A stretch of 64,000 nucleotides of DNA from Pedobacter sp. R20-19 (GTDB taxonomy: Bacteria > Bacteroidota > Bacteroidia > Sphingobacteriales > Sphingobacteriaceae). The notes beneath the pieces are model-generated. The model saw nothing but the letters and a program-made list of their open reading frames with translations. It searched no databases and was not told where the DNA came from. Below, piece after piece: positions 58,178-64,000 of the stretch (the first letter of the stretch is position 1; each line of letters opens with the position of its first letter). Where the stretch lies: the NCBI RefSeq assembly GCF_000708265.2, contig NZ_JCKI01000004.1, positions 248,001-312,000 on the forward strand. The letters are read 5' to 3'. Both the position numbers and the translations under genes were made by a program.

Positions 58178-58888
58178 CTAAACTAAAAATCCTTTTACTG
58201 CCAGCGCAATGCCAATAGCAATTCCAAAACTTAGTAAAGTTCCAATTAAAACATACTCCGTTAACTTTAAATCATGAGCTTCTTTTAAATCACCAAAGCG
58301 GAAGATAGATTTTGCAGCAAGTAAAAATCCTACTGCTTCAAAATGATTGGTCGTAATAAAGATAAAAATTAATACCCGTTCCAAAATTCCGATATATTTT
58401 CCTGCATTTTGCAATGATTTAGGGCTTTCATCATCATTTTCTGGTAACCATTTGGCAATAATTACTTTCATGATAATGGAAGTTGGCATGGTTAAAAACA
58501 AAGCACAGGAAATTAAAATCCAGAACTTAATATCATTAAGATAACTCATATCCAGATGCCCATTGAAAAAAAGATGCCAGACTAAAAAAATGGTAGAAAA
58601 ATGAAAAATCTGATCGACAAAAAACAATACACGAGCGTTTTTTCGAGTCTGAAAAATAGCTTTCATCCCATCAATAAACAAATGCAATAACCCTATTGAA
58701 AGTGCTACCTTCCATTCGCTAAAACTTAGGAACACTAAAAAAATCAACACTATATGTACAGCTACATGTATATATAGTTTTCTTGATTTTAGTTTTTTAG
58801 TTGCCTTATCCTTTACCCAGGAATTTGGTTGTAGAAAGAAATCACCTATTAAATGTGCAAGGATGAGCTTAATTAGATAGATATCCAT
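58178..58888 (-). CDS. DUF3307 membrane protein
   Basis: 236-aa integral membrane protein with about six hydrophobic spans. LAHLIGDFFLQPNSWVKDKATKK is the DUF3307 N-terminal motif and LSIGLLHLFIDGMKAIF the second His/Asp-containing block. No catalytic role is known. It follows satD with a TGATG-type overlap (shared 58888), so the pair is translationally coupled. A repeated neighbour of SatD in other genomes, from memory. Confidence 0.8.
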   Translation of the reverse strand: MDIYLIKLILAHLIGDFFLQPNSWVKDKATKKLKSRKLYIHVAVHIVLIFLVFLSFSEWKVALSIGLLHLFIDGMKAIFQTRKNARVLFFVDQIFHFSTIFLVWHLFFNGHLDMSYLNDIKFWILISCALFLTMPTSIIMKVIIAKWLPENDDESPKSLQNAGKYIGILERVLIFIFITTNHFEAVGFLLAAKSIFRFGDLKEAHDLKLTEYVLIGTLLSFGIAIGIALAVKGFLV

Positions 58889-59499
58889 CAGTTAGCAAAT
58901 ATTTGATTCAATTTTTTACGATACAGTTTATCCATATCCATTAATTCAGAGTAGTGTGCACGCTTTAAGGCCTCACTAACAGATGATTGTGTTCTACCTG
59001 AAAGGGTAGCCAGCTCACTTTGTAATAGATTTTCATGTTCTAATGCAAGTTTTACCATCTCTGCAGCAACAATTCCCCAGCTATCCATCGCAATTAATGC
59101 AAGCCTAATCATTACATTAATATCTTCATCAAATTCATTAAAATCAGTTTTGATAGCCAAATTAACTTTTGCTTGTTTTAAGCTATCAAAAGCAATTCCT
59201 GAATTCACAAATACATCACCATTTGATTCAGAAAGCTTTTTGCGTTTACTTTTAACTGTCCCAATCCCTATTCCCATTCTAACATCAGCTGGCTTATTAA
59301 CCCTGATGCAGGCTTTTAAATACGCTGCTGCTTTGATTGCATTTTCAGGTTCAACTTCTATCTGAAAGCTATCTCCTCTGTAAATCTCCCATTTGTTGTA
59401 TTGCCCTGCAATCACTTTAAGCGCACTTTTTAAGTTCGATAACCAACTATCCTTTACTTTTCTAGAGCCTACAATATCACCTGTTATAATGCAAATCAT
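58888..59499 (-). CDS. SatD-family protein: cyclase-like domain plus helix-turn-helix
   Basis: 203 aa from ATG 59499 (the frame is open to 59532, but that lies inside the promoter, so the shorter start is preferred). Residues 1-145 are SatD-like and read like a class III nucleotide cyclase: ITGDIVGSR (D8), YRGDSFQ (D43), VRMGIGIG (73-80) and GDVFVNSGIAFDSL (94-107) correspond to the DxxG, GD, GIG and VNxAxxL steps. Residues about 150-200 contain a helix-turn-helix (QSELATLSGRTQSSVSEALKRA). Likely a nucleotide-responsive regulator that binds the palindromes upstream of itself. Cyclase resemblance is inference; catalysis is not shown. Confidence 0.75.
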   Translation of the reverse strand: MICIITGDIVGSRKVKDSWLSNLKSALKVIAGQYNKWEIYRGDSFQIEVEPENAIKAAAYLKACIRVNKPADVRMGIGIGTVKSKRKKLSESNGDVFVNSGIAFDSLKQAKVNLAIKTDFNEFDEDINVMIRLALIAMDSWGIVAAEMVKLALEHENLLQSELATLSGRTQSSVSEALKRAHYSELMDMDKLYRKKLNQIFAN

Positions 59500-59531
59500 A
59501 ACACTAAGATATTTGAAATTATTCAATTTCA

Positions 59532-59539
59532 CAAAATTA
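59532..59539 (-). promoter_or_regulatory. -7 box for satD
   Basis: TAATTTTG on the minus strand matches TAnnTTTG; predicted start near 59526, leader of about 26 nt to the ATG at 59499. It touches the first palindrome at 59538. Confidence 0.45.
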
Positions 59540-59613
59540 TCGGCTAATTACCCGATATTTCATTTTATCGGCTAATTAGCCGATATTTCATTTTATCGGA
59601 CAATTAGCCGATA
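59538..59613. promoter_or_regulatory. three palindromic operator-like sites, exact 28-bp period
   Basis: The 154 bp between satD and the MBL exonuclease contain three 20-bp palindromes at 59538-59557, 59566-59585 and 59594-59613. The middle one is perfect (TATCGGCTAATTAGCCGATA); the others differ at one or two bases. Spacers are 8 bp and nearly identical (TTTCATTT). The first palindrome overlaps the satD -7 box and fills the space to its -33 position, the expected place for a repressor. They also precede the repair operon at 59654. The likely ligand is SatD, by adjacency and its helix-turn-helix. Confidence 0.7.
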
Positions 59614-59653
59614 TCATTTCAAAACTTAAATTCTGATTTATTGTTTAATATAT

Positions 59654-60709
59654 ATGGCATTAATCGAATTTACAAAAAGAGGCATTTATTGCAAACAAGG
59701 CGACTTCTATGTAGACCCTTGGTGGCCTGTAGATTATGCTGTAACTACGCATGGACATAGTGATCATGTTCGTTTTGGTAACAAATATTATCTATGCCAT
59801 ACGCTCACTAAACCGATCATTAAAAGGCGTATCAGTGAGGATTTAAATGTAGAAACATTGAATTATGGTGAAAGTATTGTTCGGAATGGGGTCAATATAT
59901 CATTCTATCCTGCTGGTCATATTATTGGTTCAGCTCAGGTTCGTTTAGAATATAAAGGAGAAGTATGTGTTATCTCTGGTGATTATAAAACTGAAGATGA
60001 CGGCATTAGCGACGTTTTTGAACCTGTAAAATGCCATTCTTTTGTTTCGGAAAGTACTTTTGGTTTACCCGTTTATAAATGGCAAAAGCAAGAAGTGGTT
60101 TTCAATGGAATTAAAAGCTGGGTAAATGATAATATCCAACAGCAAAAAACCAGTGTATTAATTGCCTATAGCCTTGGTAAAGCACAACGCCTGATTAAAA
60201 ACCTTGCGGGCGATGTTCCCATTTATGTACACAATAGCATCGCAAATTTAAACGAAGTGATTATTGATGCGGGTGTAAACCTTCCTGAAACCATTAGAAT
60301 TACACCAGAAACTACAAAAGATGAGTTGCAAAAAGGAATTGTTATTGTTCCGCCAGCCATGAGAGATAGCCGATGGATCAAGAACTTATCTCATCCGGTA
60401 ACAGGAATTTGTTCAGGTTGGATGCAGGTAAGGGCACATCGCCGCTGGCAAAGTGCAGATGCAGGTTTCGCCTTAAGCGACCATGCCGATTGGACAGGTT
60501 TAATGGATGCCATTACTGCAACTGGTGCAGAAAAGGTTTATGTTACACATGGCTTTACCGCTGCTTTTAGTCGGTTTCTAAATGATGAGGGAATTGAATC
60601 AGAAGAAGTAATGACCAAGTTTGGCCAGGAAGATGACGAAGAAAATAAAGTTGATTTAGCCGATGCTGAAAATCATCATGTTGAAACAGAAAATAAAAAG
60701 TCAGAATGA
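59654..60709 (+). CDS. ligase-associated metallo-beta-lactamase-fold DNA exonuclease
   Basis: 351 aa. VTTHGHSDHVRFG gives the metal-binding HxHxDH (near residue 33), YPAGHIIGSAQVRLE and CVISGDYKTEDDGI the next metal ligands, and FALSDHADWTGLMDAI the beta-CASP-like C-terminal part. The last 30 residues are acidic. The family is a fixed partner of the ATP-dependent ligase and Lhr-like helicase encoded downstream, forming a DNA repair cluster. It overlaps the ligase gene by 4 nt (ATGA). Divergent from satD across the palindromes. Confidence 0.93.
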   Translation: MALIEFTKRGIYCKQGDFYVDPWWPVDYAVTTHGHSDHVRFGNKYYLCHTLTKPIIKRRISEDLNVETLNYGESIVRNGVNISFYPAGHIIGSAQVRLEYKGEVCVISGDYKTEDDGISDVFEPVKCHSFVSESTFGLPVYKWQKQEVVFNGIKSWVNDNIQQQKTSVLIAYSLGKAQRLIKNLAGDVPIYVHNSIANLNEVIIDAGVNLPETIRITPETTKDELQKGIVIVPPAMRDSRWIKNLSHPVTGICSGWMQVRAHRRWQSADAGFALSDHADWTGLMDAITATGAEKVYVTHGFTAAFSRFLNDEGIESEEVMTKFGQEDDEENKVDLADAENHHVETENKKSE

Positions 60710-62304
60710 AACGTTTCGCAAAACTAATTCAACAGCTTGAGCTGAGCAATAAAACCAATGATAAAATTGCTGCACTGGTTGATTATTTTAATCACGCAGA
60801 TGATCAGGATAAAATTTGGGTAATTGCACTGTTTACAGGTAAAAAACCCAAACGTCCAATTAAGTCTGCTTTACTCAAATATTGGGCTATAGATATTACA
60901 CAGACCCCCGAATGGCTATTTTCTGAAAGCTATTCAAATGTTGGTGATTTAAGTGAAACCATCGCACTACTCCTGCCGCCTGCTGAAAATACATCGGATT
61001 TTTCATTACATAAATGGATTGAAGACCTGCATGATTTAGAAGGTAAAGACGATGAAACTAAGAAAGTGTTTATTTTAAATGCCTGGAATCACCTGGAAAC
61101 ACAGGAACGCTTCATTTTTAACAAACTCATTTCAGGAAATTTCAGAATTGGTGTTTCAAACAAAATGCTGGTCAATGCACTGGCTAAACAAAGTAGTTTA
61201 GATAGTGCGCAAATTATGCATAGCATTATGGGTAAGTGGAATCCATATGAAATAACTTTCCATGAGTTAATTAATGGTACCCATGTTAATACCGATAATT
61301 CATGGCCTTATCCTTTTTGCCTGGCTTATGCCCTAGAGCAGGAGCCAGAAAAATTAGTTGATCTATCCGAATGGCAGGCTGAATGGAAATGGGATGGCAT
61401 TAGAGGACAAATAGTGAAAAGAAATGGTGAACTTTTTATCTGGAGCCGTGGAGAAGAACTGGTAACCGATCAGTTTCCGGAACTTCATTTTTTAATTGAT
61501 GTATTGCCTGATGGGGTTGTACTAGACGGAGAAATTCTAGCCGTACAAGATAAACAGGTTTTATCGTTTAGCACCCTACAACAGCGATTAAACCGTAAAA
61601 CGATTAATAAAAAGCAGTTGGATGATGCGCCGATCGGTTTTTTTGTGTACGACATTCTGGAGTATGAAACCAATGATTTTCGAGAACATCCCTTAAGCGA
61701 AAGAAGAGCTATTTTAGAGCAGTTATTTGAAAATTTAGATGAAAGTGCTGTTATTCTTTCGCCGGTGATTAATTGCAAAAACTGGGAAGAATTGGCAACA
61801 TTGAGACAAACCTCAAGATCCATCAACAGTGAGGGCATTATGCTTAAAAAGCTGAGTTCTCATTATCATAGTGGTAGAAAACGTGGTGATTGGTGGAAAT
61901 GGAAAATCAATCCTTACACAGTAGATGCCGTAATGATTTATGCACAGAAAGGTAGTGGCAGAAGAGCAAATTTCTTTACTGATTATACTTTTGCCGTTCG
62001 TGATGGGGAAAATTTAGTTACTATAGCCAAAGCTTATTCAGGCTTAACAGATAAGGAAATTAAAGAGGTAAATTCATTTGTAACCAGAAACGCTATAGAA
62101 AAATTCGGACCAGTGCGCACAGTTAAACCAGAACTGGTTTTTGAAATCGCATTTGAAGGAATTGCCGAGAGTAAAAGACATAAAGCTGGCTTGGCTCTTC
62201 GTTTTCCAAGAATTTTACGCTGGCGAAAAGATAAAAAAGCAGCCGAAATTAATACACTTGAAGATTTACGCCAGCTGCTGGAATCAACGTTTATAAATGG
62301 CTAG
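60706..62304 (+). CDS. ATP-dependent DNA ligase of the ligase-associated repair cluster
   Basis: 532 aa. Residues about 1-185 are the N-terminal DNA-binding helical domain; ALLKYWAIDITQTPEWLFSE and LISGNFRIGVSNKMLVNALAK. The adenylylation Lys is in EWKWDGIRGQIVKR near 228 (KxDGxR), then WSRGEELV, LDGEILAV, EGIMLKKLSSHYHSGRKRGDWWKWK are ligase motifs III-V. The OB-fold follows to the C-terminus. It seals nicks in repair, using ATP. Coupled to the exonuclease by a 4-nt overlap; helicase starts 45 bp later. Confidence 0.95.
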   Translation: MKRFAKLIQQLELSNKTNDKIAALVDYFNHADDQDKIWVIALFTGKKPKRPIKSALLKYWAIDITQTPEWLFSESYSNVGDLSETIALLLPPAENTSDFSLHKWIEDLHDLEGKDDETKKVFILNAWNHLETQERFIFNKLISGNFRIGVSNKMLVNALAKQSSLDSAQIMHSIMGKWNPYEITFHELINGTHVNTDNSWPYPFCLAYALEQEPEKLVDLSEWQAEWKWDGIRGQIVKRNGELFIWSRGEELVTDQFPELHFLIDVLPDGVVLDGEILAVQDKQVLSFSTLQQRLNRKTINKKQLDDAPIGFFVYDILEYETNDFREHPLSERRAILEQLFENLDESAVILSPVINCKNWEELATLRQTSRSINSEGIMLKKLSSHYHSGRKRGDWWKWKINPYTVDAVMIYAQKGSGRRANFFTDYTFAVRDGENLVTIAKAYSGLTDKEIKEVNSFVTRNAIEKFGPVRTVKPELVFEIAFEGIAESKRHKAGLALRFPRILRWRKDKKAAEINTLEDLRQLLESTFING

Positions 62305-62348: not shown

Positions 62349-64000
62349 ATGGATCAAACCAAAACCAAAGGTTACAAAAAGATAAAAGCATGGCTTAAGC
62401 AAAACAAGCGTAAACCTTTTAAATTTCAGGAAGATGCCTGGCAATATTATCTTAATGGCTATAGTGGTTTGGTAAATGCTCCAACTGGTTTTGGAAAAAC
62501 TTTTTCTTTATTTTTAGCTGTAGCCATCGAAGCTTTAAATGCATCAGAGGCTAGTAATAAAAAGGCAAAAGATCGTTTACAATTAATCTGGATTACACCG
62601 CTACGTTCGCTGGCTAAAGATTTAGCAAGAGCCATGAGGGAAACTTTAATTGAACTTGAGTTAGACTGGCATGTAGGTGTTAGAAATGGAGATACATCAC
62701 AGGCAGAGAAAGTTCAGCAAAAGAAATCAATGCCAGAAATTTTATTGATAACACCAGAAAGTCTGCATTTACTCCTCGCGCAGAAAGGTTCCTCTACCCT
62801 ATTTAAAAACCTGAAATGTATTGTTGCAGATGAATGGCATGAGCTTTTAGGTAGTAAACGGGGCGTGTTGGTAGAACTTGCAGTATCAAGAATAAAGGGA
62901 CTACAGAAGTTGGAACAAAATCAATTTTTAAGAGTCTGGGGAATTTCAGCAACCATTGGAAATATAGAAGAGGCCCTGGATGTTTTAGAGCCCAATGAGG
63001 AAGCAAAAAGAATTATTGTAAAAGCCGATCTGGAAAAGAAAATTATAATTAAGTCTATTCTGCCAGATGATATTGAAACCTTACCATGGGCCGGCCATTT
63101 GGGCTTAAAATTAGCCTACAAGCTGTTGCCCATTATTGAAAAAAGTAAAACGACTTTAATTTTCATTAACACACGTGGCCAGTCTGAGATGTGGTATCAG
63201 CATCTGTTAAATATAGAACCAGAATTGGCGGGCCGAATTGCAATTCACCATGGATCTATAGATTTTGAGTTGAGAAACTGGATTGAAGATGCTTTACATA
63301 CTGGTCAGCTAAAGGCTGTAATTGCAACTTCTTCTTTAGATTTAGGCGTAGATTTTAAACCTGTAGATACCGTTGTGCAAGTTGGATCGCCAAAAGGTGT
63401 AGCCAGGTTTTTGCAACGTGCGGGCCGTTCAGGACACTCACCTAATGAAGTTTCCAAGATCTATTTTCTGCCTACCCATGCACTGGAATTGGTTGAAGCC
63501 GCTGCAATTAAGGAAGCAGCAAAAACCAATAATATTGAAAGCAGAGAACCTTTTATTATGGTCTTTGATACCTTAGTACAATATTTGGTTACCCTTGCCA
63601 TCGGCGATGGTTTTAATGATAAAATCATTTATGAAGAAATCAAAAATACGCATGCTTTCAAATTAATTTTGCCTGAAGAATGGACTTGGGTGATGCAGTT
63701 TATTACATCAGGTGGTGACAGTTTAGGCGCTTACAATGAGTTTAAAAAGGTTACTAAAGATGAAGATGGCCTTTGGAAAGTAAAGAGCCGGCAATTGGCT
63801 ATGCGGCACCGTTTGCATATCGGCACAATTGTTAGTGATGCCATGCTGAAGGTTAAATTTCTTTCGGGTGGTTACATTGGCATGGTTGAAGAGTATTTTG
63901 TAACTCGTTTAAAAGCCGGTGATAATTTTCGTCTGGCAGGTCGTGTTTTGGAATTTGTACATGTCAAAGATATGACGGTAATTGTTAGAAACAGCAAGCA
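62349..64000 (+). CDS. ligase-associated DEXH-box helicase (Lhr-like), cut by the window end
   Basis: Open from ATG 62349 to the window edge (550 codons). The Walker A is VNAPTGFGKTFSLF (near residue 43), the Walker B is VADEWHELLGSKRG (DEWH), WGISATIGN is motif III, and LQRAGRSGHSPNE is motif VI. These are the Lhr-type superfamily 2 helicase motifs. The remaining C-terminal domain, including the Lhr WH region, lies outside the window. Third member of the repair cluster; it should unwind DNA for the ligase and exonuclease. Confidence 0.93.
   Translation, partial: MDQTKTKGYKKIKAWLKQNKRKPFKFQEDAWQYYLNGYSGLVNAPTGFGKTFSLFLAVAIEALNASEASNKKAKDRLQLIWITPLRSLAKDLARAMRETLIELELDWHVGVRNGDTSQAEKVQQKKSMPEILLITPESLHLLLAQKGSSTLFKNLKCIVADEWHELLGSKRGVLVELAVSRIKGLQKLEQNQFLRVWGISATIGNIEEALDVLEPNEEAKRIIVKADLEKKIIIKSILPDDIETLPWAGHLGLKLAYKLLPIIEKSKTTLIFINTRGQSEMWYQHLLNIEPELAGRIAIHHGSIDFELRNWIEDALHTGQLKAVIATSSLDLGVDFKPVDTVVQVGSPKGVARFLQRAGRSGHSPNEVSKIYFLPTHALELVEAAAIKEAAKTNNIESREPFIMVFDTLVQYLVTLAIGDGFNDKIIYEEIKNTHAFKLILPEEWTWVMQFITSGGDSLGAYNEFKKVTKDEDGLWKVKSRQLAMRHRLHIGTIVSDAMLKVKFLSGGYIGMVEEYFVTRLKAGDNFRLAGRVLEFVHVKDMTVIVRNSK

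Follow-up and report, generated by a model that had tools for sequence, protein, structure and literature searches.

A tandem palindrome array beside satD in Pedobacter as the probable operator of SatD, with matching arrays in phages

Why should three nearly identical palindromes stand in the short gap between two divergent genes? This question is raised by a 64,000-nucleotide stretch of the Pedobacter sp. R20-19 genome (contig NZ_JCKI01000004.1, positions 248,001 to 312,000; hereafter, the window), in which satD and a divergently transcribed exonuclease gene are separated by 154 bp. This intergenic gap holds three exact matches to TATCGG-N8-CCGATA, with start-to-start distances of 28 and 28 bp, as a preliminary description made from the sequence alone had stated. 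We consider it highly likely that the array is the operator of SatD, on which dimers would sit side by side and repress satD and the following DUF3307 gene, with the palm domain of SatD as the probable sensor. In the array, a half-site recurs every 14 bp (6 + 8 + 6 + 8), and the three palindromes take up 84 bp, or about 8 turns of B-DNA. The exact pattern occurs in the 5.0-Mb genome at these three positions only (reversed control, 0), and the tandem 48-mer has no second copy anywhere in the genome when up to 3 mismatches are allowed. Within the window alone, tolerating 2 mismatches gave 4 palindrome matches versus 1.23 expected; thus, single degenerate sites are not rare, and it is the exact triplet that is rare.

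The array is not peculiar to this genome. A satD match was found in 107 of the 201 genomes of the bacterial family, and nearly all of these were fetched and joined by the best 30 of 73 phylum-wide matches to give 137 distinct SatD proteins; another 45 were fetched by the array pattern itself (182 in all) and were excluded from the mutual-information and nearest-pair analyses described below. A de novo search for 6-8-6 tandems upstream of the 137 genes placed the best period at 28 or 29 in 120.8 cases (ties shared), compared with 13.8 per shuffled set, and 105 of the 137 upstream regions scored at least 22 of 24, compared with about 1 after shuffling. Half-sites of the TATCGG class occur in Pedobacter and others, and TATCAY, TATCTG, TATCTA, TATAGA, and GAAACA were found in other lineages; the half-site sequence varies by lineage and the architecture is kept. 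A further half-site class bore out the prediction, since TATAAG tandems were present in 9 of 395 phylum-wide genomes and the fetched locus held satD-DUF3307 in 8 of the 9. In G309, which has TATAAG arrays, the locus of one array was examined and is without satD. An unusually long TATAAG palindrome array precedes satD in L486 (G357, approximately 1380-1840), with a masked stretch ahead of it. Additionally, a scan of plasmid satD copies across many gaps and periods, made without shuffles, revealed two palindromes with a 28-bp period just before satD in two related Pseudoalteromonas plasmids.

The preliminary description had proposed looking for the palindrome upstream of satD in relatives, as opposed to unrelated genes. 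TATCGG tandems were present in 44 of the 201 genomes (reversed control, 0), in 40 of them at satD, and by positional comparison the remaining 4 (G052, G063, G073, and G103) carry them elsewhere only. The array therefore recurs at satD homologues as foreseen, and it also recurs in phages, which had not been part of the proposal. With three places in prophage-like DNA (G048, G088, and G188), the tandem places away from satD number seven. G103 has no satD match in its genome, and the loci in G073, G063, and G052 (L125-L127, Olivibacter-type) have tandem copies inverted relative to each other, two of them beside trpS. A contig pattern scan yielded at least 119 loci in all, and a SatD match was present in 68 of the 80 listed; of these, L258 and L312 have the matched array behind the operon, L305 has a weak SatD match, and L259 is cut at the edge.

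It is important to consider how regular these arrays are. In the 102 loci already passing the array search, to which all geometry counts refer, the inner gap was 8 bp in 324 of 345 palindromes, the distance between successive dyads was 28 or 29 bp in 210 of 243 cases, and three palindrome copies were present in 61 loci. The more constant inner gap identifies the palindrome as the unit, in line with the earlier suggestion that separate dimers occupy the palindromes. The independence of those dimers, which was part of the same suggestion, is less well sustained, since the tightly kept period argues for contact between neighboring dimers.

The array very probably belongs to satD, and SatD itself very probably binds the palindromes as its putative operators, as judged from the comparison of sequences. 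The assignment of the array as SatD's own site, already made in the preliminary description, gains from its recurrence at the satD genes of homologues, from the 28/29-bp period, and from a covariation between half-sites and the recognition helix. What appears to be the strongest single case for SatD as the binder is L023, in which all six half-sites read TATCTG/CAGATA, not TATCGG, and the predicted recognition helix reads QPLVSGALKRAN, not QSSVSEALKRAH. For the covariation analysis, operators were sought only at gap 8 and period 28 or 29, the TAT-first orientation was preferred, and rows scoring below 22 were dropped (35 of 137). Across the homology-fetched set, operator positions 1, 2, 4, 5, and 6 each share the most mutual information with a column of the recognition helix (171, 171, 176, 173, and 176, respectively). 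Furthermore, among 51 independent nearest pairs, the helix differs in 13 of the 18 with different operators versus 6 of the 33 with the same operator (13/5/6/27; Fisher p 0.00021).

Several observations weigh against this reading. The upstream regions of 32 of the 137 satD genes score below 22, just 3 genomes in the phylum-wide set of 395, each belonging to the window's genus, have ATCGG tandems, and a Sphingomonas plasmid copy of satD has no upstream tandem scoring above 20 in the plasmid scan. On the protein side, mutual information for operator position 3 peaks outside the recognition helix, and columns 90, 37, and 193, likewise outside it, also rank high. The observed pair statistic is equaled or exceeded by 178 of 5000 matched random sets of columns. 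The partial correlation with the operator was 0.315 for the N-terminal domain given the helix versus 0.313 for the helix given the N-terminal domain, and with a stricter redundancy cut the values were 0.384 and 0.284, respectively; by this measure, common ancestry and the helix would seem to be about equally good explanations of operator similarity.

PF16264, the family to which the name SatD belongs, derives that name from the sat operon of Streptococcus mutans. It is the only Pfam family found in the window's SatD (32.6 bits versus a curated cut-off of 29), and since a phylum-wide family search did not report the SatD of this genome, the protein is a marginal member by that model. The structure model (predicted local distance difference test score, pLDDT, 96.7; predicted template modeling score, 0.93) matches palm-fold enzymes over residues 1-140, namely, GTP cyclohydrolase III (Z 9.7), Cmr2/Cas10 (9.6), GGDEF (9.2), adenylyl cyclase (8.8), and OptS (8.3); these are modest values, within a range of Z 8.2-9.7 among the 50 matches listed. 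Foldseek gave no match at E 0.001 or better (best, 1.3e-3), and neither did a search of BFVD. A profile of 85 SatD sequences matches the cyclase Ma1120 over residues 3-86 (E 7.8e-4), with D8 and D43, both invariant in the 85 aligned proteins, lying opposite the cyclase aspartates; the alignment to cyclases stops near residue 86-91. The C-terminal part matches helix-turn-helix proteins, which, together with the model, backs the helix-turn-helix noted in the preliminary description. SatD is thus modeled as a palm/nucleotide-cyclase-like domain joined to a helix-turn-helix, with two invariant aspartates at a putative metal site. Its partner DUF3307 is modeled as all-helical (pLDDT 94.0) and had no match in a structure search of the PDB (best E 1.3). 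It has 60 invariant residues, many of them polar (H12, D16, H41, D73, K76, Q93, H96, E170, R171, K193, R197, and E211).

According to the mechanism that we propose, each palindrome would hold one SatD dimer, attached by the helix-turn-helix at the C-terminus. A row of two to several such dimers would form at the fixed 28-29 bp, with neighbors probably touching. Located at and upstream of the satD promoter, SatD would most likely repress the satD-DUF3307 operon, and such negative autoregulation is what we regard as likely. Sensing is probably the task of the N-terminal palm/cyclase-like domain, where the invariant aspartates lie. A nucleotide may bind to this domain with metal and thereby alter DNA binding, and a nucleotide-like signal received through it may release repression. 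The features involved are collected in Table 1.

Table 1. Positions in the window of the palindromes, the candidate satD promoter, and the surrounding genes
Feature	Position	Strand	Details
Palindrome 1	59538..59557		TATCGG-N8-CCGATA, closest to satD; pattern match
Palindrome 2	59566..59585		perfect 20-bp palindrome TATCGGCTAATTAGCCGATA; pattern match
Palindrome 3	59594..59613		closest to exonuclease gene; pattern match
Candidate satD promoter	59504..59536	-	TTTTG at 59536-59532, 20 nt, TATCTTAG at 59511-59504; inferred from the general Bacteroidota motif
satD	58888..59499	-	203 aa; ATG at 59499; predicted palm/cyclase-like domain ~1-140, helix-turn-helix ~142-202, recognition helix 171-180
DUF3307 membrane protein gene	58178..58888	-	236 aa; directly downstream of satD, start overlaps satD stop; PF11750, E 7e-26
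Ligase-associated DNA damage response exonuclease (metallo-beta-lactamase fold by name)	59654..60709	+	ATG at 59654; TIGR04122, 447.8 bits, cut-off 325
ATP-dependent DNA ligase, cisplatin damage response type	60706..62304	+	TIGR04120, 637.8 bits, cut-off 400; PF01068
Helicase-like gene	62349..64000	+	open reading frame, runs off the window; named helicase from sequence alone

With the named exonuclease and ligase types side by side and both TIGR04122 and TIGR04120 over their cut-offs, these genes form a ligase-associated DNA damage response cluster, and the fuller model of the preliminary description was that the palindromes are mainly operators of this divergent repair operon and SatD its regulator, which would tie the SatD family to DNA repair. 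In the window's genus, the two genes indeed start on either side of the array, at a distance of about 40 bp in the case of the exonuclease. However, only in that genus does a divergent exonuclease stand beside satD, at 29 of the 137 loci fetched by homology and 41 of the full 182, whereas DUF3307 follows satD in 179 of the 182, the remaining 3 holding fewer than 175 bases downstream; these neighbor counts hold within the flank of about 1.5 kb that the loci carry. Where the repair genes sit elsewhere, the array stays with satD. Conversely, we gathered 30 exonuclease-like loci from 27 genomes, 25 with a ligase gene beside the exonuclease and 5 being weaker paralogues. In the 28 without an adjacent satD (23 ligase-linked and 5 paralogues), no tandem array was found (best scores, 17-19 of 24), and in the 2 with an adjacent satD the array was present in both. 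These results led us to reject DNA repair as a family-wide target of SatD and make a primary operator function for the repair operon unlikely. Since the array is lacking at exonuclease genes without satD, the repair link would be local to the window's genus, and it is unproven. In Pedobacter, the exonuclease-ligase-helicase operon starts from the same intergenic region, so it may be regulated together with satD, as a putative local effect of the array.

A second alternative, which we rate as quite improbable, retains SatD as the binder and has it activate its operon, or work by looping, rather than repress it. Promoters of Bacteroidota follow the motif TTTG-N19..21-TAnnTTTG, and a sigma-70 promoter scan was set aside as the wrong model for this phylum. 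By this motif, palindrome 1 abuts the upstream element of the candidate satD promoter, and the layout is similar in the listed relatives as read by eye. The earlier view that the first palindrome covers the satD promoter holds to the extent that the two adjoin; they touch without cover, although with an alternative -7 box (TAATTTTG at 59539-59532) the edge of palindrome 1 would be overlapped. Among the 23 listed close relatives (L001 and L005-L026), 7 have TAnnTTTG where this alternative box lies. With SatD start codons assigned by rule, the nearest palindrome ends 37-40 bp before the satD start codon in most listed loci of the window's clade, and this location just upstream of the promoter candidate would also suit an activator, a further point to be set against repression. 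In several other relatives, on the contrary, only 7-25 bp separate the end of the last palindrome from the start codon, a distance at which it would cover the promoter or start. Consequently, the exact mode of repression may differ between relatives. Genes named satD are also described in Streptococcus pyogenes (PMC11323703) and in Streptococcus suis, where the product is listed as a DNA-binding protein (PMC12005413). According to the first source, transposon studies of S. pyogenes found satD essential in emm1, emm28, and emm49 strains, and the gene is present in 178 of 249 genomes (PMC11323703). By analogy, an essential accessory satD looks like the repressor or antidote of a harmful partner, which is a hint and not a test; the pattern would suit the loss of a repressor or antidote and so speaks against activation, but it does not show it.

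It is very improbable that another, unlinked host regulator binds the array and that SatD is merely one of its targets. Ancestry alone accounts for much of the covariation and would leave room for such a protein. Nevertheless, half-site changes coincide with changes in the SatD recognition helix in independent pairs, and hardly any copies of the array in the host lie away from satD, so an autoregulator fits better than a global regulator.

Unexpectedly, such arrays are also carried by viral contigs. In IMG/VR, ATCGG tandems (TATCGG class) were found in 35 stretches at period 28-29 versus 2 when the period was set to 32-33 and 0 with the half-site scrambled; TATAAG tandems in 67 versus 0 at the wrong spacing; TATCA tandems in 5 versus 0 at the wrong spacing; and TATCTG tandems in 2, in a scan made without a spacing control. 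At E 1, neither the SatD nor the DUF3307 profile matched anything in the 108 viral loci scanned. When the SatD profile was run against 50 whole viral records, which are possibly fragments, 47 gave none and 3 gave weak matches to the helix-turn-helix part only, and tblastn of SatD and of DUF3307 against INPHARED returned no match. DUF3307 does match the phage family PHROG 2470 ("membrane protein, moron/host takeover"; E 8.4e-13), which means that distant phage relatives exist. With viral genes called by a simple open reading frame rule, 9 of 79 distinct viral sites lay inside an open reading frame, where non-coding DNA amounts to just 19.6% by the same rule; 41 lay between codirectional genes, 10 between convergent genes, 9 between divergent genes, and 10 at edges. 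A tRNA gene flanks 22 of the 79. That the palindromes are RNA hairpins or bidirectional terminators is barely credible: a simple scan calls three terminator-like sites at the window's array versus 0.2 expected by shuffling, and the convergent and tRNA-flanked viral sites would agree, but conservation concerns the 6-bp arms and the 28-29 bp period and leaves the 8-bp center free to vary, the viral counts nearly vanish at the wrong spacing, and the array in the window lies upstream of two divergent genes, not behind genes.

Individual viral loci show further features. One short viral contig (L223) combines two half-site classes, with a TATCGG array and a TATAAG array at approximately 1248 and 4921, both among tRNA genes. 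In the prophage-like DNA of G088, the gene for a phage terminase large subunit begins a few bases downstream of the array (L200, 2486-2557). DUF6965 genes stand beside arrays in four viral loci (L222, L224, L225, and L235) and in Olivibacter domesticus (L272); PF22292 was confirmed in L222, L224, and L272, the other cases being assigned by eye and clustering. In L224, an SRAP/HMCES gene is also near the array.

Because the viral arrays are only loosely tied to promoters, a decoy function fits them better than that of an ordinary operator. A wider proposal, which we offer as tentative and on balance doubtful, is that SatD-DUF3307 is a nucleotide-sensing guard pair, in which the palm domain would read a nucleotide signal and hold down a potent membrane partner, and that phages have responded by carrying SatD-operator arrays between genes, also within tRNA arrays, as decoys or borrowed switches whose half-site class corresponds to that of the host SatD. 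The viral arrays might also be borrowed control or the sites of an unknown phage protein.

In the open literature, with most subscription journals outside its scope, our search revealed no publication that describes the operator, structure, or mechanism of SatD or SatD sites in phages. On our reading, SatD would be an autoregulator with an unusual sensor and a conserved array. NrdR is a nucleotide-responsive repressor that acts on paired NrdR boxes, and the model of SatD resembles it in combining nucleotide response with spaced palindromes. The sensor domain, period, and half-sites differ, and SatD has no ATP-cone/NrdR domain in the Pfam search. With the class III cyclase/GGDEF/Cas10 palm superfamily SatD shares the fold and the aspartates aligned with those of Ma1120, but it is fused to a helix-turn-helix, and catalysis is putative at most. 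As described for Panoptes (PMC12657218), the mCpol protein OptS and the membrane effector OptE likewise form a two-gene operon of a palm protein and a membrane protein. The OptS structure (9pd0) is among the fold matches given above, by its palm only; unlike Panoptes, SatD has a DNA-binding domain and an operator, and DUF3307 is without a structural match. To our knowledge, no defense activity has been reported for SatD-DUF3307. PADLOC 2023 found no defense system here, and whether that version includes Panoptes was not checked. On a Sphingomonas insulae plasmid (L412, 947-8437), satD-DUF3307 stands among genes annotated as TIR domain, Pycsar effector, and adenylate/guanylate cyclase, a neighborhood that is a hint rather than a test.

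These results remove the attractive but weak idea of SatD as a general regulator of DNA repair. If the operator reading is true, SatD, known mainly by name, would become a testable class of transcription factor that joins a palm/cyclase-like domain to a helix-turn-helix. Its operator could be read from the genome with a partial recognition code, for example, between residue 176 and half-site position 6. The phage part, if true, would go further: with binding sites of a host regulator present where the regulator is not, phage arrays would offer a new place to seek conflict between host and virus.
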